Below are positions 1 to 49,984 of a stretch of 64,000 nt of DNA, piece by piece. The notes under the pieces are model-generated. The model saw nothing but the letters and a program-made list of their open reading frames with translations. It had not been told where the DNA came from and searched no databases. Every line of letters starts with the position of its first letter. Position 1 is the stretch's first letter. The position numbers and the translations under genes are program-made. This stretch comes from Micromonospora sp. NBC_01699 (GTDB taxonomy: Bacteria > Actinomycetota > Actinomycetes > Mycobacteriales > Micromonosporaceae): positions 4,836,001 through 4,900,000 of the forward strand of contig NZ_CP109199.1 of the NCBI RefSeq assembly GCF_036250065.1. The letters are read 5' to 3'.

Positions 1-12783
<12,783 letters not shown>

Positions 12784-12785
12784 TG

Positions 12786-14760
12786 TTACTCCTTGTCACC
12801 ACGCATGGGCCGAAGCACCGGCCGGTTCGATTTCTGCTGTTGGCCGATCCGGCGCGCCAGGCCGGCCGCAGTGGGCGCCTGTAGGAGGGCGCGCAACGGC
12901 ACGTCAACGTCGAGCGCCGCCCGGATCCGGGCGAGGGCCCGGACCGCCAGCAGCGACTGACCGCCGAGGGCGAAGAAGTCGTCGTCGATGCCGACCCGGT
13001 CCAACCCGAGAACCTCGGCGAAGGCGGCACAGACCGCCTCTTCCCGGGGATCGGTCGGGGCGCCGCCGCCCGGCACCGGCGTCGGGGCGAAGTCCGGCAG
13101 GGGCAGCGCGCGGCGGTCGATCTTGCCGTTGGGGGTCACCGGCAGCGCGTCGAGCAGCACGACGGCGGATGGCACCATGTACGGCGGCAGCCGGTGCGCC
13201 ACGAACTGCCGTATCCGCTCGGCCACCTCGTCGTCGGCGAGGCCCATTGCGGAGGTGGCGGCGACGTCGGGCCAGTCGAGGCGCAGCCGGTGGCGCTCGG
13301 CCTCGTCCACGGTGTCGATCGCACTCAGCGGCGGGTCGCTGTCGTCGTCCGCCGCGGCCTGCAACGCGTCGACCAGGTTCCGCGTGGTGGTGCGCAGCAG
13401 CGCCGCCACCGTGTACGGGTCGATCGGCGCGGTGGCGTCGACGGTGAGCACCAGGGCGTCGCCGTCGTCGTCGACGGATGCGTTGACCGGGAACGTGCTG
13501 CGTTCCCGGGCGTGCAGCACCCGGATCCCGGTCGCCTCCGGGATCAGGTCGGGCTCGTCCGACGGGTCGGCGCCGTTGTTGTGCCGGTAGTTGAACAGGG
13601 CGGTGAACAGTGGGGTCTCGGCGGCGACGCCGCTGGCCCGTTGCGCGACGGCAAGCGGCGCGTGCTCGTGTTCGAGCAGGCCGGCAAGCTGGTCGCGCAT
13701 CGCCACCATCGCCGCCCGTACGGTCAGCTCGCCGGTGCGGACCCGCACCGGCAGGGTGTTGATGAATGGGCCGGGCACCCGGTCGGAGCCGGTGCCGGCG
13801 TTCATCCGCCCGAACAGCACCGTGCCGAACACCACGTCGTCCCGTCGGGCGAGGGTGGCGACGACCCGCGCCCAGGCGACGTGCAGCAGCGTGGCCGGGC
13901 TGACGCCCAGCGTTCGTGCGGTCTCGCGCAGCCGGTCGGCGAAGCCGGCCGGGAAGTGGAGCCGTTCCCTGGTCAGGTTGCTGCCGTCGCCCCGTACGTC
14001 GCGGATGCCGAACGGCACCGTCGGTTCGGTGACATCGCCGAGGAGCTCGGCGAAGTAGCGTTCGTGCTCCGTTTCGGCGACGGCGGTGCGGGCGTGCGCG
14101 ACGAAGTTTCGGAACGGCAGTGGAGCGGCGATCAGGTCGTCGCGGCCGGCGAGGATCGCCCGCACCTCGCCAAGCAGCACGTCGAGCGCGACGTGGTCCT
14201 GGATCATGTGATGGACCCGCAGCAACGCGTACCAGCCCGGCCCGTCGGGCGCCGCGGCGGCGTGGATGTCGAGCAGCGGGGCACGGTCGAGGTCCATGGC
14301 AAGCCCGGCGACGGCAGCCAGCACGACGACCGGGTCCTCGTCGGCGGCAAGCACTGTGTCGATCACCGGCAGGGTGACCCGTCGCCACACCACCTGCACC
14401 GGCTCCGGCAGCCCCTGCCAGACGATCGCGGTGCGCAGAACGTCGTGGCGGTCGACGACCCGGCGTAAGGCGTCGACGAACCGGTCGAGGTGGGCCCGAG
14501 TGTCGAACCCGACGGTGGTCGACATGATGTAGGCATCAATGCCGCCCTCGGCGAGTAGATGGTGGAAGAGGATGCCCTCTTGCAGCGGGGCGAGGGGATA
14601 GATGTCGGCGATGTTGCCGGCGCCGCCGTCGACGGTGGCGGCGATCCGGTCGACCTGCTCGACGGTCAGATCGACCAACGGCAGCATGTCCGGGGTGATC
14701 TCGGTGGCGTCGATGGGAATGGCATTGGCCGGCACATCGACCTGCCGGGCACCGCCGGTC
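12786..14760 (-). other. Module C4: dual E/C-(A remnant)-T, no functional A domain
   Basis: The dual domain is complete at its N-terminus ([12 protein letters not shown]) but its second core is [11 protein letters not shown], with Ala where the others have Gly. About 13290-13090 encodes only the last A-domain piece: a helix ([20 protein letters not shown]) and the A10 motif [10 protein letters not shown]. The T domain (GGQSL) is intact. Amino-acid loading must come from another protein, or the position is skipped. Confidence 0.9.
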
Positions 14761-17700
14761 ACCGCCAGCGCCGCCGGCGTCGGCGTCTGGAAGAACGCCC
14801 GTACGGACACCGACACCCCACGCCGACGCAACCAGTCGACCAGCCGCACCACCAGCAACGAATGCCCACCCAGAACAAAGAAATCGTCATCCACACCGAC
14901 CACTTCCAAGCCGAGGATCTCCGCGAACCCCGCACACAGCAATTCCTCACGCGCATTCACCGGTGGACGGCCGGAACCAACCCGGATCTGCGGGTCAGGC
15001 AGAGCGGAGCGGTCGAGCTTGCCGTTGGCGGTCACCGGCAACGCATCCAGCACCACCACCGCCGCAGGCACCATGTACTCCGGCAACCGCCGGCTCACGT
15101 ATTCCCGGACACCGGTACCGTCACCACCGACGACGTACGCGATCAGCTTGTCGTCGCGGACGATGACGGCGGCCTGGGTCACCTCCGGGTGCGCGGCCAC
15201 GGCGGCCTGCACCTCACCCAACTCGATCCGGAACCCACGCAGCTTCACCTGCTCATCCGTACGACCCAGATAGTCCAGTCGCCCGTCAGCGGTCCAGCGG
15301 ACCAGGTCACCCGTGCGATACAACCGCCCACCCGGCTCGTACGGATTGGCAACGAACCGCTCACCGGTCAACCCGGCCCGGTTCACATACCCCCGCGCGA
15401 GCTGCACACCAGCCAGATACAACTCCCCGGCCACACCCACCGGCACCGGCCGCAAACTGTGGTCGAGCACATACGTGCGGGTATTCGCGACCGGCTCACC
15501 GATCGTCACCCGCGCACCCGACTCACACCGAGCGGCGGTAACGTCAACCGACGCCTCCGTCGGCCCGTACAAATTATGCAGTTCAACATCGGGAAGCGCG
15601 GCCAGGAACCGATCCTGCACAGTGGCCGGCAGCGCCTCACCCGAACAAATCACCCGGGTAAGGACGCCACACCGGTCAGCGACCGGCAGGAACGCCTCCA
15701 GCATCGACGGCACAAAATGCACCGTCGACACCCGCTCAGCGTCAATCAACTCCGCCAGATACGCCGGATCACGATGACCCCCCGGACGCGCCACCACCAA
15801 AGTCGCGCCCTCCAACAACGGCCAGAAAAACTCCCACACCGACACATCGAAGGTAAACGGCGTCTTCTGCACCACCCGATCCGACTCCGTGAGTCCAAAC
15901 CGGTCCTGCATCCACCGCAACCGGTTCACAATCCCCGCATGCGAAACAACAACACCCTTCGGCCGACCCGACGACCCCGACGTGAACAACACATACGCCG
16001 GATGATCCGGACGCGGACGCGCACGCACCGGCGGCGCCGACGACGACGGCGCCTCGTCGACCCCGACCCGGGCCACACCCAACGGCAGCACCGACGCGCA
16101 CTCCGGCGAGGTCACCACCGCCACCGGCAACGCGTCAGCCAACATCACCGCCACCCGCTCCACCGGATACTCGGGATCAACCGGCAAATACGCCCCACCC
16201 GCCTTCAGCACACCCAACAACGCCACCACCAGATCAGCACCACGCGGCAGACACACCCCCACCACCGACTCCGGACCCACACCACGCCCCACCAACACCC
16301 GCGCCAACCGCTCCGCCCGCGCATCCACCTCCGCATACGTCAACGACTCGCCCTCGAAGACCACCGCCACCGCCGCCGGCGACGCCACCACCCGCGCACC
16401 GAACAACGAAACCAGCGTGTCGCCCGCCGGATACACCACCGACGTGTCATTCCAGTCGATCAACAGGCGCGCACGCTCGTTGCCGTCGAGGACGTCCACG
16501 GCGCCTACCCGTACGGTCGGGTCGGCGACCACGGTGCGCAGCACCCGGACGAACCGTTCGCCGAGTTGGTGTACCGAGGCCGGATCGAACAGGTCGGCGG
16601 CGCCGATCAGTTCGCCGCGCAGGCCCTGCGGTTGCCGGGCGGGACCGTACTCCTCGGTGATGCCGAGCTCCAGGTCGAACTTTGCGGTCCGGGCCTCCGA
16701 CCCGACGTGACCGGTGTCGACGTCGGTCAGTTCGAGTACCGCCGCCGCCTGATTCTGCACCGTCAACATCACCTGAAACAACGGATGCCGCGCCAACGAC
16801 CGCACCGGCGACAACTCCTCCACCAACCGCTCAAACGGCACATCCTGCCGCTCAAACGCCGCCAAATTCGACTCCCGCACCCGCCCCAACAACTCCACAA
16901 ACGACGGATCCCCCGACACATCACCCCGCAACACCAACGTATTAACAAAAAACCCCACCAAATCATCCAACGCCTCATCCACCCGACCCGCCACCGCCGT
17001 ACCGATCGGCACATCCACCCCCGCACCCATTCGCGACAACAACACCACCAACGCACCCTGAACCACCATCGCCACCGTCACACCCTGCACCCGAGCAAGC
17101 CCCACCACCGCCGCGTGAACCTCAGCCGACACCACCAACGACACCCCATGACCCCGAAAACTCGGCACCACCGGACGCAACCGATCCACCGGCAAACCCA
17201 ACTCCTCCGGCAACCCAGCCAAAGCCTCCCGCCAAAAACCCAACTGCCGCGACAACACACTCCCCGGATCCGACTCCACACCCAACAACTCCCGCTGCCA
17301 CACCGCAAAATCCGCATACTGCACCCGCAACGGCAACCACCCCGGCACCCCACCGGCCACCCGCGCCGCATACGCCACCGAAAGATCCCGCGCCAACGGC
17401 ACCAACGACCACCCATCAGCCGCCACATGATGCACCACCACCACCAACACCGACCCACCAAACAACCACGCCCGCAACGGCACCTCAACCGACAAATCAA
17501 ACGGACGACCAATTACCTCCGACAACTCCCCCACCGGACCATCGACAACCCCCAACCGCCAATCCAACTCCCCCACCGGAACAACCCGCTGAAACGGCTC
17601 ACCATCAACCACCGGAAACACCGTACGCAACACCTCATGCCGACCCAACACATCCCGCAACGCCAACTCCAACGCCAACACGTCCACCCCATCCAGCCGC

Positions 17701-20700
17701 AACACAAACGGCATGTGATAGACCCCGGACGACCCCTCCAACTGATTCACAAACCACAACCGACGCTGCGCGAACGACAAACCCACCCGCGACCCACGCA
17801 CCACCGGAACCACCACCGGACGCGCGACCGCCACCGACGACAACCGCACCGCCAACCGCCCCGGCGTCGACGCCTCAAACAACACCCGCAACGACACCTC
17901 CACCCCCAACACCACCCGCACCCGACCAACCAACCGCACCGCCAACAACGAATGCCCACCCAACACAAAAAAATCGTCATCCACCCCCACCACATCCCGA
18001 CCCAACACCTCAGCAAACACCACACACAACAACTCCTCACGCGGCGTCAACCCCACCCGACCCACACCACCACCAGCCTCAACCACCGGCACCGGCAACG
18101 CCTTACGATCGACCTTGCCGTTCGACGTCAACGGCAAACAATCCAACAACACCACCACCGACGGCACCATGTACTCCGGCAACCGCCCCGCCACAAACCC
18201 CCGCACACCCTCAACATCAAAACCCGCCCCACCCGCAACCACATACGCCACCAACCGCCGCTCACCCGGACTATCCTCACGCACCACCACACACACCTGC
18301 TCCACACCCGGACACACCGCCACCACCGCCTGCACCTCACCCAACTCAATCCGAAACCCACGAATCTTCACCTGATCATCAACCCGACCCCCGAACACCA
18401 ACTCACCATCCACCGTCCACCGCACCAAATCACCAGTCCGATACATCCGCTCACCAAACCCAAACGGACACGCCACAAACCGCTCCCCAGTCAACCCAGC
18501 ACGCCCCACATAACCCCGCGCCAACTGCGACCCCGCGATATACAACTCACCCACCACACCCACCGGCACCGGCACCAACGCGGCATCCAGGACGAACGCC
18601 CGGCTGTTGGGCAGCGGCCCGCCGAACGGCACCGGGCCGTCGGCGCAGCCCGGGTCGATCCGGCCGGCGGCCATGATGACGGTGGCCTCGGTCGGCCCGT
18701 ACGCGTGCACCAGGTGCCGGCCCCGCGCCCATCGGGCGGCCAGGGCCGGGTCGACGACCTCGGAGCCCACCACCATTGCCTCGATGTCGGTGAACTGCGC
18801 CGGGTCCAGCACAGCCAGCAGCGACGGCACCACGCTGGCTGAGCGCACTCCATTCTCGGTGACCAGCCGGTGCAGCAACTCCGGCTCCGACCGCTCCGCC
18901 GCTGAGGCGATGAACAGGGTGCCACCGCAGGCGAGGGTGACCGCCACGTCGAGTACGGAGGCGTCGAAGCTGAACGAGGCGAATTGCAGGACGGGAATTC
19001 CGGGTCGTACCCGCAGCACCGACGCGAACACCGACACGAGGTTGGACAGGCCGCCGTGCGGGACGCACACGCCCTTGGGCCGTCCGGTTGAACCGGAGGT
19101 GTAGATGACGTACGCCGCCCCGCCGGGCGCCGGGGCGGTAGGCAGCGCGACGTCGGCGAGGTCGTCCGGTAGCGGCGCATCGACGACGACCGGGTCGACG
19201 TCGTCCGGCAGCACGTTGGCGCACGACGACGCGGTCAGCACCACGCGCGGCCGGGCATCGGAGACGAGGTAGGCGATGCGCTCGGCCGGATATTCCGGAT
19301 CGATCGGCAGGTACGCGCCGCCGGCCCGCCAGACGGCCAGGATCGCCACCACCATGTCGAGTCCGCGGGGCAGGCAAAGCCCGACGACAGTCTCCGGTCC
19401 GACGCCGCGGGCCGCGAGCAGCCGGGCGAGCCGGTCGGCCCGGGTGGCAAGTTCGGCGTACGACAGCGCGGCGCCCTCGTGCACCGCGGCCGGCGCCTCC
19501 GGCGTACGGACCACCTGTCGGCGGATCAGCTCCGGCACCGGGATGCCGGCGAAGTCCGCAGCGGTGTCGTTCCACTCCTCGATCACCCGGCGCCGTTCGG
19601 CGTCGTCGAGGACCTTCACCGCGCGCAGCGGCGGGTCGGTGTCGCCGTCGAGAGCGGCCCGGAGCCGGGTCACCAGGTCGTCGACCGTGGTGACGATGAG
19701 CCGGCCCAGGGCGTCGACGTCGATCGGCGCCACCGCGTCGACGGAGACGCTCGCGTCGTCGCCGTCGTCGTCGACGGAGACGGTCAGCGGGTAGTTGTTG
19801 CGCTCGTGGGCGTAGACCACCCGGATGCCGCCGTCGCCGTCGCCGGTGGGGTCGGCAGCGGCCGTATTCCGCCGGTAGTTGAAGATCGACGTGAACAGCG
19901 GGGTGTCGGCTGGTACGCCGCTGACCCGCTGCGCGACGGCGAGCGGGGCGTGTTCGTGTTCGAGTAGGGCGGCCAGCTGGTCGCGCATGGTGGCGACCGC
20001 GTCGCGTACGCCGGTGTCGCCGGTCCGTACCCGGACCGGCAGGGTGTTGATGAACGGGCCGGGCACCCGGTCGGCGCCGGCGCCGGCGTTCATCCGACCG
20101 AACAGGACCGTGCCGAACACCACGTCCTCGCGGCCGGAGACAACGGCGAGCGCCCTCGCCCAGGCGACGTGCAGGACGGTCGCGGGACTCGCGCCGAGCC
20201 GTCGGGCGATCTCGCGCAGCCGGCCGGCCAGTCCGGGCGGGAACGGGGTGCGACCGCGCGCCGGGTACAGATCGCTGCGGACTTCCGGCACCCCGAACGG
20301 CACGGTCGGCTCGTCAACGTCGCCCAGCAGTGCGGCAAAGTACCGCTCGTGCTCCTCCTGAGGGACGCCGGCGCGGGCCTGGGCGACGAAGTCGCGGAAC
20401 GGCGGCGCGGGCGGCAGTTCGTCGCCCCGGCCGGCGAACAGCGTCCGCACCTCGTCGAGAACGACGTCGAGGCCGGTGTGATCCTGGACGAGGTGGTGGA
20501 CACGGACCAGCACCAGCCACCGGTCGTCGCCGGGGATCCGGGCGGTGAACAGGTCCATCAGCGGCGCTCGCCCCAGGTCGATCCGCGACCCGCCGGCCCG
20601 GACCAGCTCTGCGACCGGGTCGTCGCCGTCGGGGTCGAGGGTCACCTGCTGGACCCGGAGGGTGGCTTGCCGCTGGACGACCTGGACGGGTTCGGGCAGG

Positions 20701-21122
20701 CCGTCCCAGACGATCGAGGTGCGGAAGATGTCGTGCCGGTCGACGATTCGGCGCAGCGTGTCGACCAGCCGGTCGACGAGTGCGTGGGCGTCCAGCTCGA
20801 TGACGGTGGGCAGGACGTAGGTGTCCGGTCCGTCGCCGGCCAGCAGATGGTGGAACAGCAAACCCTCCTGTAACGGAGCCAGGGGATAGATGTCAGCGAT
20901 ATTCGCGGCACCACCATCGACGCTGACAGCGATCCGATCAATCTGCTCGACGGTCAGCTCAACCAGCGGCAACATATCCGGAGTAATCCCAGTGGCACCG
21001 ACCGGAATCCGATTCGCCGGCACCTCCACCTGCCGAACACCAACACTAGCCGCCAACGCACCCGGAGTAGGAGTCTGAAAAACGCCCGCACCGACACCAC
21101 CACACCACGCCGACGCAACCAC
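12786..21122 (-). CDS. NRPS-C, 3' fragment: dual E/C-A-T, C-A(Ser)-T, dual E/C-(A remnant)-T
   Basis: This continues NRPS-C after the frameshift. The apparent first residues (before FQTPTP) are out of frame, and no ribosome site supports an independent start, so I treat it as the rest of the same gene. In repaired numbering: C2 dual E/C-A(DALSVGAVIK)-T about 1047-2124; C3 C-A(Ser)-T 2125-3134; C4 dual E/C, A-domain remnant, T 3135-3793. Module C4 lacks motifs A1-A8 and keeps only the end of an A domain. The C-terminus is [12 protein letters not shown], like the ends of A and B. TAA is followed after two bases by the NRPS-D ATG, and the NRPS-D ribosome site overlaps the last two codons, so C and D are translationally coupled. 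Confidence 0.93.
12789..12794 (-). promoter_or_regulatory. Ribosome binding site of NRPS-D inside the end of NRPS-C
   Basis: AAGGAG forms the last Lys-Glu codons of NRPS-C and lies five bases before the NRPS-D ATG (12783). The TAA stop is between them. This layout favours translational coupling. Confidence 0.85.
14765..17790 (-). other. Module C3: C(LCL)-A(Ser)-T
   Basis: The C core is HHVAADGWS. The pocket is DVWHISLVDK (Ser). The N-terminal half of this A domain differs from the other Ser domains ([18 protein letters not shown]...), while its central specificity region is near-identical to them, suggesting subdomain exchange. A dual E/C domain follows, predicting D-Ser. Confidence 0.85.
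17795..21025 (-). other. Module C2: dual E/C-A(DALSVGAVIK)-T
   Basis: The dual domain has HHLLAGDG and the core [11 protein letters not shown]. The A pocket is the same as A5, so the unknown residue is used twice. From about 18540 down to the T domain the codon use switches abruptly. The next C is LCL. Confidence 0.77.
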
Positions 21123-46891: not shown

Positions 46892-48076
46892 TCAGCGCCG
46901 TCCGCCGACGGCGGCGGCGTGCGTGAACGTGACCAGACGGCGTACGCCCTCCTCCAGGGCACTGTCGTCGGCGGTGAGGGAGACCCGTACCCAGCCACCG
47001 CCGCGCGCGCCGAAGGTGGAGCCGGGGGCGACCAGCACCCGCTGCGAGCGCAGCAGCTCGCGGGTCCAGTCCCAGTCACCGCCCTGGCCGCCCTCGTCGG
47101 GCGGCGGGTCGGTGACCCGGGCGAAGACGTAGAAGGCGCCCTGCGGCTCGACGTACGGGATTCCGGCGTCCCGCAGCGTCCGGGTAACGCTGGCCCGCCG
47201 CCGCAGGAGGCTGGTCCGCAGGTCGGTGACCACCTGCTGCGGTCCCTGGAGGGCGGCCACGGCACCGGCCTGGGCGGCGATGTTCACGCAGCAGATCGAC
47301 ATCTCCTGTAACCGGAGGCAGAGCGCGGCCAACGCCCGTGGCACCACCAGGTAGCCCACGCGCATGCCCGGGATCGCGAAGGTCTTGGAGAAGCTGAAAG
47401 AGCTGATGACGCGTTCGCCGTCGAGGGCGGCCGGGCTGAGGTGGCGGCCGGTAAACCGGAACGACTCGTAGCACTCGTCGGAGATCACCCACAGGTCGTG
47501 TCGCCGGGCCAGCTCGACGACGCCCTGCATGGTCTGCGCCGACAGCACCACGCCGTGCGGGTTGGCCGGCGAGTTCACCACGATGGCAATGGTGGCCGGG
47601 CCGATGCTGCGCTCCAGGTCGGCGAGCTGCTCGGCGGCGGAGTCGTCGGCCGACAGCGCGTAGGGCCGCGCCACGCCGCCGAGCGACCGGGTCGCCATCG
47701 CGTAGTTCGGCCAGCCCGGGTCCGGCACCAGCACCTCCTGCCCGGGTGCCAGGATCGTGGCCAGCGCGAAGTGGACGCCCTGGGCGGCACCGGCAGTCAC
47801 GACGATCTGCTCGGTGCCGACCCGGATGTCGTTCTGTCGGGCCAGTTTGGCCTGGATCGCCTCGACCAGGTCCGGTTCGCCGCGGTTCGGCCCGTAGCGG
47901 GCGGCGCCCCGGCGTACGGCCTGTTCGACGGCGGTGACCACGTGGTCGGGCGAGGGGTGGTCCGGCGCCCCGATGTGCAGGGCGATCTCCGGTCCCGGTA
48001 TCTCCTGAAGCCACTCGCTGATGGCCCGGAAGCCGGACCGGCCCACCGCCTGCGCGTACGCGCCGACTGACGGCAT
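46892..48076 (-). CDS. Class I/II PLP-dependent aminotransferase
   Basis: This is a 394-residue fold-type I aminotransferase. Visible active-site elements are RYGPNRGEPDLVEAI near residue 60, NSPANPHG (PLP phenolic-oxygen Asn), SDECYESF (Asp and Tyr of the PLP site), SKTFAIPGMRVGY with the Schiff-base Lys, and the C-terminal substrate-carboxylate Arg in WVRVSL. A strong AGGAGG site (48082-48087) lies five bases before the ATG, 62 bases after the upstream lyase gene. It probably aminates a 2-oxo acid, perhaps made by the neighbouring lyase, to give an amino-acid building block for one of the unassigned modules. It lacks the look of the arginine-oxidising MppP group. The substrate is not predictable from the sequence. 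Confidence 0.88.
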   Translation of the reverse strand: MPSVGAYAQAVGRSGFRAISEWLQEIPGPEIALHIGAPDHPSPDHVVTAVEQAVRRGAARYGPNRGEPDLVEAIQAKLARQNDIRVGTEQIVVTAGAAQGVHFALATILAPGQEVLVPDPGWPNYAMATRSLGGVARPYALSADDSAAEQLADLERSIGPATIAIVVNSPANPHGVVLSAQTMQGVVELARRHDLWVISDECYESFRFTGRHLSPAALDGERVISSFSFSKTFAIPGMRVGYLVVPRALAALCLRLQEMSICCVNIAAQAGAVAALQGPQQVVTDLRTSLLRRRASVTRTLRDAGIPYVEPQGAFYVFARVTDPPPDEGGQGGDWDWTRELLRSQRVLVAPGSTFGARGGGWVRVSLTADDSALEEGVRRLVTFTHAAAVGGRR

Positions 48077-48138
48077 CTATACCTCCTAAGGGTTTCTCCG
48101 CCAGCTCGGCGACCGTGACGAACGGCCCGCGGCGTGGG

Positions 48139-49029
48139 TCAGAGCACGTGCAGCCGCTTCATCACCATCAGCAGTTCCTCGCGCGACTCGGGGTCGATCC
48201 GACGCAGCGGTGACCGGACGTGGGCGCTGGCTATCACGCCCATGGCCGCCACCACCTCCTTGAAGCGCGCGATGAAGTTCCGCTCGGGGATGGAGATGGC
48301 GACCATCGCCGGGAGCAGCGTGTTGGTGAAGATCGTGTACGCCTCGTCCAGGTCGCCCCGGTGGTACGCCTCGTGCACCGCCATGACCTCGCGGGGCTGG
48401 ATGTTGCCGGTGGCGATCGTGCTGCCGACCGCACCGGCCCGGAAGGTGCTCAGCAGCGCGCTGTCCTCGCCGGCGAGCGGGACGACGCCCGGCGCCAGGC
48501 GGAGGATGTCGCTGGCCCGCTCCGGGTCGGTGAACGCCAGCTTGGCGTACTTCACGTTGGACGCCCGCTTGGCGACCTCGGCGACGACCTCGGCCGGAAC
48601 GGGGATCCTGCCGGCACCGTCGTACAGCATGATCGGCAGGTCGGTCGACCGGGCCACCGTCGTGAAGTGCTCGATCTGCGCCGCCGGCGACAGGTCGAAA
48701 TAGAGCGGGGGCAGCACCATCAGACAGTCGGCGCCGGCCTCCCGCGCGGCCTGGCTGAGTTCGATCGCGGCGGCGGTGCCGTCGGCGCCGACGCCGACGG
48801 TGACCGGCACCCGGCCGGCGACCCGGGTCACGACGTTGCGCATGACCTCGACCCGCTCGGCGGTGGACAGGGTGAAGAACTCGCCCGTCGTGCCCAGCGC
48901 GATGATTCCCTGGATGCCACCGCCCAGCACGAAGTCGATGAGCGACGCCATCGACTTGTGATCGAGCTCTCCGGAGTCGTCGAACGGGGTCACCACGAGG
49001 GTGTTGGCCCCACCCGGTACGAGGTCCAT
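48139..49029 (-). CDS. DHDPS/N-acetylneuraminate lyase-family aldolase
   Basis: This is a 296-residue class I lyase, about the length of E. coli DapA (292). Key residues are present: GTTGE (pyruvate carboxylate binding), the catalytic Tyr in LYDGAGR, and the Schiff-base Lys in VKYAKLAF. The Arg five residues after that Tyr matches DapA Arg138. The usual Tyr-Asn-x-Pro motif is instead Tyr-Asp-Gly-Ala, so the second substrate may differ from aspartate semialdehyde. Family members join pyruvate to an aldehyde or do the reverse. Next to an aminotransferase and a hydroxylase, a plausible job is building a 2-oxo acid that is then aminated to a non-proteinogenic amino acid. The ribosome site GAGAGGA (49036-49042) is six bases before the ATG. 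A housekeeping DapA paralogue recruited to the cluster is the alternative. Confidence 0.85.
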   Translation of the reverse strand: MDLVPGGANTLVVTPFDDSGELDHKSMASLIDFVLGGGIQGIIALGTTGEFFTLSTAERVEVMRNVVTRVAGRVPVTVGVGADGTAAAIELSQAAREAGADCLMVLPPLYFDLSPAAQIEHFTTVARSTDLPIMLYDGAGRIPVPAEVVAEVAKRASNVKYAKLAFTDPERASDILRLAPGVVPLAGEDSALLSTFRAGAVGSTIATGNIQPREVMAVHEAYHRGDLDEAYTIFTNTLLPAMVAISIPERNFIARFKEVVAAMGVIASAHVRSPLRRIDPESREELLMVMKRLHVL

Positions 49030-49156
49030 GATGCGTCCTCTCTTCTTCGTGTACCGCGGGCCGGACGGACCGCGGCGCCGCCGGGCGGAGACCGCCGGCA
49101 GGTGCCGGCCGGGGACCGTCTCGACGGGAACGTCCGTGGATGCAGCGGCCGGAAGC

Positions 49157-49984
49157 TCAGAAATCAGGTACGAAGGGCGCGACGCCGATGATCAGGATCG
49201 AGCGCTGACCGGGGCCCGGGGATTCGTCGCCCAGCCGCACGGCGCTGACGTGGTGGCTGACCCGGTGGTCGTGCACCACGTACGTGTCCAGCGGCTGGGT
49301 CAGCGTGAACTGGGCGTGGATCGCCTCCGGCGCGAGTTCCTCGGGCTGTCGCCCGGCGCTCTCCGGGGTGGCGATGACGTTCTCGCCGCCGACCACGTTG
49401 TGGCAGTCGACCAGGTGCGCGAAGGTGAACATGGTCGCCCCGCCGTCCTGGTGCAGACAGTTCGGCGACGAGACGGCGGCCTCGCCCGGATTGTGCACGG
49501 CGAGCTTCACCATATGCAGCCCGATGTAGATCGGGGTTCGGGTCAGCTCCTCAAGCCACTGCACGCGGGCGACGTCCGACCGGAGGATCTGTAGCAGCAG
49601 CGGATTCACCCGGAGCTCGTCGGGCACTTCCGGAAAGCGCCTACGCAATTTCGTGAAATCCGGATTGTAGCGACCCTGATAGTATTCCGCGACGGATCCG
49701 TACACGTCGTCCGAAACGCCGGGAATCCAGAACAGACCGTCATTCCACGGCAGATACACGAGCTGTGAGTACCGGCGGAAACGGTTGCTGCCCGGCGCGT
49801 AAGAGTCCGGTGGAAGGTCGGCGAAGGCGGCAGCTAGCTGCCGGAACCCCTCCGGGTGCTCGTCCGCCGAGAAGCCGAAGTCCGCAGCCCGGCCGCGGGC
49901 GAAGCCGCGTTCGGCCAGGCTGTCCGCATTCGCGTCCGGGCGATCCGGTAAGACCAAAGTCGTCTCGGGTCGACTCCCGTCCAT
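49157..49984 (-). CDS. 2OG-Fe(II) dioxygenase, amino-acid hydroxylase type (PF10014-like)
   Basis: This is a 275-residue predicted non-haem iron, 2-oxoglutarate-dependent oxygenase. The iron facial triad is visible as CLHQDGG (HxD, about residue 170) and a distal His in YVVHDHRVSHHVSAVRL, followed by an Arg/Ser stretch (RSILIIG) typical of 2OG binding. The HQDG, GGEN and PLDT-HDHRVSHH signatures resemble the family that contains isoleucine dioxygenase IDO and the pipecolate hydroxylase GetF, which hydroxylate free amino acids. The start is set by an AGAGGGG ribosome site (49991-49997) six bases before the ATG. It is the first of three small genes between NRPS-A and NRPS-B, so it probably prepares or modifies a residue of the peptide. 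The substrate cannot be read from the sequence; action on a carrier-bound residue is possible. Confidence 0.85.
   Translation of the reverse strand: MDGSRPETTLVLPDRPDANADSLAERGFARGRAADFGFSADEHPEGFRQLAAAFADLPPDSYAPGSNRFRRYSQLVYLPWNDGLFWIPGVSDDVYGSVAEYYQGRYNPDFTKLRRRFPEVPDELRVNPLLLQILRSDVARVQWLEELTRTPIYIGLHMVKLAVHNPGEAAVSSPNCLHQDGGATMFTFAHLVDCHNVVGGENVIATPESAGRQPEELAPEAIHAQFTLTQPLDTYVVHDHRVSHHVSAVRLGDESPGPGQRSILIIGVAPFVPDF

Follow-up and report, generated by a model that had tools for sequence, protein, structure and literature searches.

The last module of a long nonribosomal peptide synthetase (NRPS) gene in Micromonospora sp. NBC_01699 lacks most of its adenylation (A) domain, which raises the question of how its carrier (T) domain receives an amino acid. 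The genome is a single contig of 8.28 Mb, and the gene lies in the 64,000-nucleotide stretch analysed here (the window, C1:4836001-4900000), which is itself part of a very large minus-strand NRPS cluster that extends from about 4905895 to 4800603 of the genome. The synthetase genes follow one another as G1 (six modules), G2 (seven), G3 (one), G4 (two plus the A-less module), G5 (ten) and G6 (four). With 31 condensation (C) and 31 T domains, the whole line would make a peptide of about 31 residues, and we know of no product of this cluster. G4 (window 12786..21122, minus strand, 2778 aa) carries two complete modules followed by the A-less one, in the domain order EC-A-AC-T-C-A-AC-T-EC-[AC second half]-T according to the profile search, and is succeeded by G5 (window 1..12783, minus strand, continuing to genome position 4817629).

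The A-less module is real and was confirmed in several ways. Its condensation domain (window 13278..14615, minus strand, with HHMIQDH at 14193-14213), which we take to be of the dual E/C type from its likeness to other such domains here, is followed by a 16-aa linker (13230..13277, minus strand) that replaces the A core and the first half of the A-domain C-terminal subdomain. Next come a 43-aa remnant corresponding to the second half of that subdomain (13101..13229, minus strand), with the a9 motif LPPYMVP and a 10-aa a10 motif bearing a catalytic-type lysine (13101-13130, minus strand), and an intact T domain (12846..13052, minus strand, with LGGQSLL at 12948-12968). The A-domain motif names are the customary ones and the A10 lysine is required for function, in agreement with the corallorazine paper discussed below. 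The remnant matches positions 38-76 of the 76 in the Pfam AMP-binding_C profile (30.5 bits, above the cut-off of 24.5) and shares 53-76% identity with the corresponding stretch of the 30 complete A domains of the cluster. Alignment with eight complete E/C modules of the window, in which 11 linker residues were placed opposite a8 by the aligner, likewise revealed that the A core and the first half-subdomain are missing. The first-pass annotation, made from the letters of the window, had reported an A domain lost between a complete dual E/C domain and an intact T domain, and the profiles, the alignment and a second species all bear this out. It had also described the A10 piece as the only part retained; a10 is indeed present, but the remnant is the complete second half of the C-terminal subdomain, from the helix before a9 onward (a helix that we place from general knowledge of the fold).

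The second species is Micromonospora matsumotoense DSM 44100 (L017), in which the same EC-remnant-T module is 83% identical across all 643 aa and is cut at the same place, so that chance or an assembly fault is unlikely to account for the missing domain. There too the start of a G5-like gene comes after the A-less gene. In a search of plasmid records with the 2778-aa G4 protein, matches were obtained in 2465 records, the best match in each record lying below 60% identity.

A free-standing gene containing an A domain had been predicted for the cluster, and such a gene was found in an unexpected form at genome positions 4814816-4817503 (plus strand, 896 aa), about 18.5 kb to the left of the window and on the strand opposite to the synthetase genes. 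Its neighbours are G5, which ends convergently to it at 4817629, and G6, which starts divergently from it; the start codon of the trans gene was chosen by us, as the open frame begins further upstream. About 455 aa at the N-terminus can be recognised as a C domain (153.7 bits) and are followed by an AMP-binding match that spans positions 6-384 of the 384 in the profile (272.6 bits), while AMP-binding_C is matched only over positions 1-35 of 76, at 17.3 bits and below the cut-off of 24.5. The protein ends in LVAYVVPAR directly before the stop codon, has no T domain, and contains one a8 motif and no a9-a10 in the motif scan; reading the other two frames past the stop gave no continuation. Downstream of the stop lies a strong hairpin (-37 kcal/mol, z -4.5).

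The M. matsumotoense genome encodes a counterpart that is 82% identical over residues 20-896, with an AMP-binding_C match of 22 bits that is again below the cut-off. As both genes end in LVAYVVPAR-stop and each has a strong hairpin downstream (-33.7 kcal/mol, z -3.5, in M. matsumotoense), the end of the trans gene is not a recent truncation. In both genomes the trans gene is divergent from a G6-like gene. On the 3' side the neighbourhoods differ, with M. matsumotoense having a 330-aa open reading frame on the same strand (L017:10699-11691, cyclase-like by eye) where NBC_01699 has the convergent end of G5.

By comparing the break points of the two genes, we found that they are complementary. 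The AMP-binding_C subdomain is divided into positions 1-35 in trans and 38-76 in cis in NBC_01699, and into 1-35 and 41-76 in M. matsumotoense; A1-A8 and A9-A10 are thus on different genes, neither half has the motifs of the other, and together they are complete. The domain counts agree with this division, as the six synthetase open reading frames hold in cis 31 C, 31 T, 30 A and 30 full-length A C-terminal subdomains in addition to the split halves, and a8 motifs number 30 in cis plus the one on the trans protein. These totals include the G3 T domain although its tail changes frame, and the subdomain counts were taken from profiles, a strict a9-a10 pattern having counted 17 including the remnant.

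Since the trans protein lacks the A10 part and a carrier while the module has both, the simplest arrangement is one A domain assembled from two proteins. We therefore favour, with a probability of roughly 75% on sequence grounds, a naturally split A domain that is reconstituted between them. The cis half, located after the dual E/C domain and before the T domain of the A-less module, would comprise a9-a10 including the A10 lysine, and the trans half would comprise A1-A8 with the first half of the C-terminal subdomain, on the separate C-A protein of about 896 aa. The trans protein would dock on the module, probably via its condensation-like N-terminal domain, and the joined domain would adenylate an amino acid (putatively Gln-like) and load the T domain of the same module, after which the dual E/C domain would condense and epimerise as other modules do. 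As the trans protein is a C-A protein without a T domain, it would load the carrier of the module directly. From these features we infer physical association, adenylation, substrate and the docking role of the C-like domain, the last by comparison with the N-terminal extensions of the ramoplanin and enduracidin stand-alone modules. It is also probable, judging by the architecture, that the A domain is obligately intermolecular, with an A10-bearing socket in the line and a carrier-less, condensation-dead plug-in selector for one position of the roughly 31-residue peptide.

The loading of this residue had previously been left as a choice between supply in trans and omission, and our results make trans loading the most likely outcome. 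Module skipping is known in NRPSs, and a skipped module, whose T domain stays empty while the chain bypasses it and gains no residue there, would be in keeping with the missing A core in cis. Both HHMIQDH and LGGQSLL are intact, however, and each of the two genomes with this module also encodes an A core whose ends are complementary. This was further examined through dN/dS between the two species (Nei-Gojobori), which is 0.19 for the E/C domain (478 codons) and 0.34 for the T domain with its flanks (101 codons). With its motifs and coding sequence maintained in this way, the module is improbable as one that is simply passed over.

The same comparison was extended to the two A halves. In the trans protein, dN/dS is 0.43 for the C domain (455 codons), 0.19 for the A core (387 codons) and 0.09 for the half-subdomain (54 codons); in the A-less module, the remnant a9-a10 gives 0.23, a value from only 43 codons with a low dS of 0.15. 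For the remnant and linker together the ratio is 0.57 (60 codons), and the linker alone, whose sequence varies between the species, reaches 0.92 (14 codons) and appears close to neutral. As a baseline, the first module of G6, an ordinary orthologous module, gave 0.28 (C), 0.22 (A), 0.16 (AC) and 0.11 (T), G6 beyond that module being left out as probably not orthologous. Both halves thus seem to be under about the same constraint as a functional A domain, neither contains an internal stop codon, and the trans C domain appears to be relaxed yet kept open.

These values also bear on two accounts that treat the arrangement as damage. In the first, the A domain of the module would be misassembled or recently deleted and the C-A gene would be a truncated pseudogene, an idea encouraged by the repetitive nature of the cluster and by a frame change in the T domain of the neighbouring gene. 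It is nevertheless hardly credible: an independently assembled genome of another species has the same architecture with the same end points, the A halves show dN/dS of 0.09-0.23, and no stops lie inside either half. In the second, proposed in the first-pass annotation, the surviving last A subdomain was a sign of deletion by recombination. This interpretation is not supported, given a trans protein that lacks the same piece, conservation in a second species and the low dN/dS of the remnant; for these very reasons the remnant looks like one functional half of a split A domain, although the split itself may have arisen by deletion or in another way.

The remaining alternative is that a complete stand-alone A or A-T protein loads the T domain in trans, in the style of ramoplanin and enduracidin, in which case the remnant would be a scar and the C-A gene would do something else. 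Loading of such modules by A-T proteins is established (PMC8949500), and NBC_01699 does encode a complete A-T protein (genome 4988366-4990486, plus strand) and a complete free A protein (4967254-4968807, minus strand), about 82 kb and 61 kb past the G1 end of the cluster, respectively. Both of these, however, sit among other NRPS genes. When M. matsumotoense was searched with the A-T protein, only 39-47% matches were returned (27 matches), and with the free A protein the best match was 41%, all matches lying in open frames of at least 598 aa and the own-genome control giving 100%. With no orthologue in M. matsumotoense, neither of these two genes on the right of the cluster was retained as a general partner. 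Between G1 and G6, no partner with a complete A domain and a T domain was found, the sole free A gene there having no T domain. The expectation of a ramoplanin- or enduracidin-type A-T partner was accordingly not borne out, as the gene actually present encodes a C-A protein with half of AMP-binding_C. A complete partner would, moreover, leave unexplained both the conservation of the remnant and a C-A gene that ends where the remnant starts, and we regard it as unlikely.

Returning to the split domain, the C-like part of the trans protein deserves separate attention. Its condensation motif is HQLAADT (HQLAADP in M. matsumotoense), whereas all 31 cis domains have HHxxxD(G/H) at the same position; neither HHxxxDG nor HHxxxDH, the active-site motif, occurs in the trans C domain. 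The C-like domain looks catalytically dead from this motif and would be structural. A clean motif difference was also seen among the cis domains themselves, HHxxxDH being present in 13 of the 13 dual E/C-type domains and HHxxxDG in the 18 other condensation domains. AlphaFold predictions (9 and 13 sequences) returned low confidence for both halves, with pLDDT of about 30-45 in the remnant and about 34-55 in the trans half-subdomain; such values would fit a half domain without its partner and equally a shallow alignment.

In both species, DGWQFGLMN occupies the specificity positions of the trans A domain, with columns assigned according to the PheA code, and this combination is absent from the 30 other A domains. 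We take it to be close to a glutamine code, a weak substrate call. Nine of the 30 cis A domains share the code DVWHISLVD, presumably Ser-like. The trans C-A protein is 40-42% identical to six modules of the cluster among the matches listed, and in 100 relatives searched with it (own genome aside) identity was 36-43% among the matches listed. It is thus no close relative of the cluster modules, so the pair is not simply one domain recently cut in two; the two halves may differ in origin, and their fit is not guaranteed.

To define the distribution of the pair, several searches were combined. A pattern scan with the trans protein over genomes of 84,980 species, sensitive to close relatives only, gave 58 pattern matches and two confirmed relatives, namely M. 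matsumotoense and a 34% match in Frateuria. A family search for the A-less module in 354 genomes, in which three candidates were scored per genome and other A-less modules could be missed, returned full-length matches in M. matsumotoense (G275, the positive control) and the own genome only. Across 296 genomes of the class, with up to nine candidates scored per genome, a search for the E/C-remnant-T junction gave one other clearly contiguous match among the matches listed (genome G678). Reading its translation revealed a methyltransferase-like stretch that interrupts an A domain between a8 and a9 (L052:9482-11896, C36, in another genus of the class), and this match was rejected as an A-less module; a second, longer junction match (genome G577) proved to be an ordinary module and was also rejected. 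By these searches, the trans gene and the A-less module occur together in two species only.

A precedent exists in corallorazine biosynthesis. PMC11342130 reports that the A2 domain is cut after A8, that Crz2 starts with A9-A10, and that the Crz1 piece alone gave no glycine turnover, which became almost quantitative when Crz2 was added; the authors allow for a recombination accident. As in Crz1/Crz2, the cut here lies between A8 and A9, two genes are involved and a9-a10 stays with the T domain. The two corallorazine genes lie next to each other, with the first half forming the end of the preceding synthetase protein and an N-methyltransferase interposed at the break, whereas in NBC_01699 that half belongs to a free C-A protein encoded on the opposite strand beyond the 10-module G5, no methyltransferase is present, and the C domain of the trans protein duplicates the cis E/C domain. 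With opposite strands, G5 in between and no inserted domain, the present locus is a variant and not a crz-type cluster. Interrupted A domains, with a methyltransferase between a8 and a9, indicate that the same site tolerates foreign sequence, but they remain one polypeptide.

A-less modules fed in trans by A-T partners are already known and are textbook cases. The ramoplanin and enduracidin module is reportedly A-less, and, as here, a module of a long synthetase is served by a separate gene; the A-less module described in this work belongs to a multimodular synthetase. The partner in those systems is an A-T protein with its own carrier, unlike the C-A protein here, which has no carrier and lacks half a subdomain that is supplied in cis. 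In PMC8949500, the ramoplanin and enduracidin module is spoken of as having an inactive A domain, and the stand-alone modules carry an N-terminal extension that is needed for trans-complementation in the ramoplanins. In SyrE/SyrB1 (syringomycin) and albicidin, trans complementation likewise makes up for an A domain that is absent or dead (PMC8949500), but the partner is a complete A-T protein with no shared A domain, and SyrB1/SyrC involves aminoacyl transfer between carriers. The passages of PMC8616955 that were consulted make no mention of this type of A-less module, and our literature search of open-licence papers found corallorazine as the only functional split A domain. The combination of a split A domain with trans feeding by a C-domain-bearing, carrier-less protein looks new.

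If true, this would be a second split A domain, cut in the same loop, with a detachable partner and conserved in two species, in a phylum that we take to differ from that of the corallorazine source. The a8-a9 loop would then be a natural point at which substrate choice can be uncoupled from the assembly line, offering a testable design rule for amino-acid swaps in peptide antibiotics, and the pair would provide a clean system for studying how a trans protein locates its single target among 31 carrier domains.

Further observations concern the surrounding cluster. In G3 (24166-20954), the reading frame of the terminal T domain is lost at a stretch of T's and the domain goes on in the G4 frame (window 20954-21122); a sequencing indel may have divided what is a single gene, or the break between G3 and G4 may be genuine. 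Between G1 and G2, three genes on the minus strand (window 46892-49984) encode a 2OG-Fe dioxygenase (PF10014), a DHDPS-family aldolase and a class I/II aminotransferase, which, judged from these family assignments, might together supply an unusual amino acid. Finally, the flanks of the cluster carry D-ornithine/lysine aminomutase-like subunits and a CmlA-like diiron beta-hydroxylase (genome 4907871-4910367 and 4794230-4795870).
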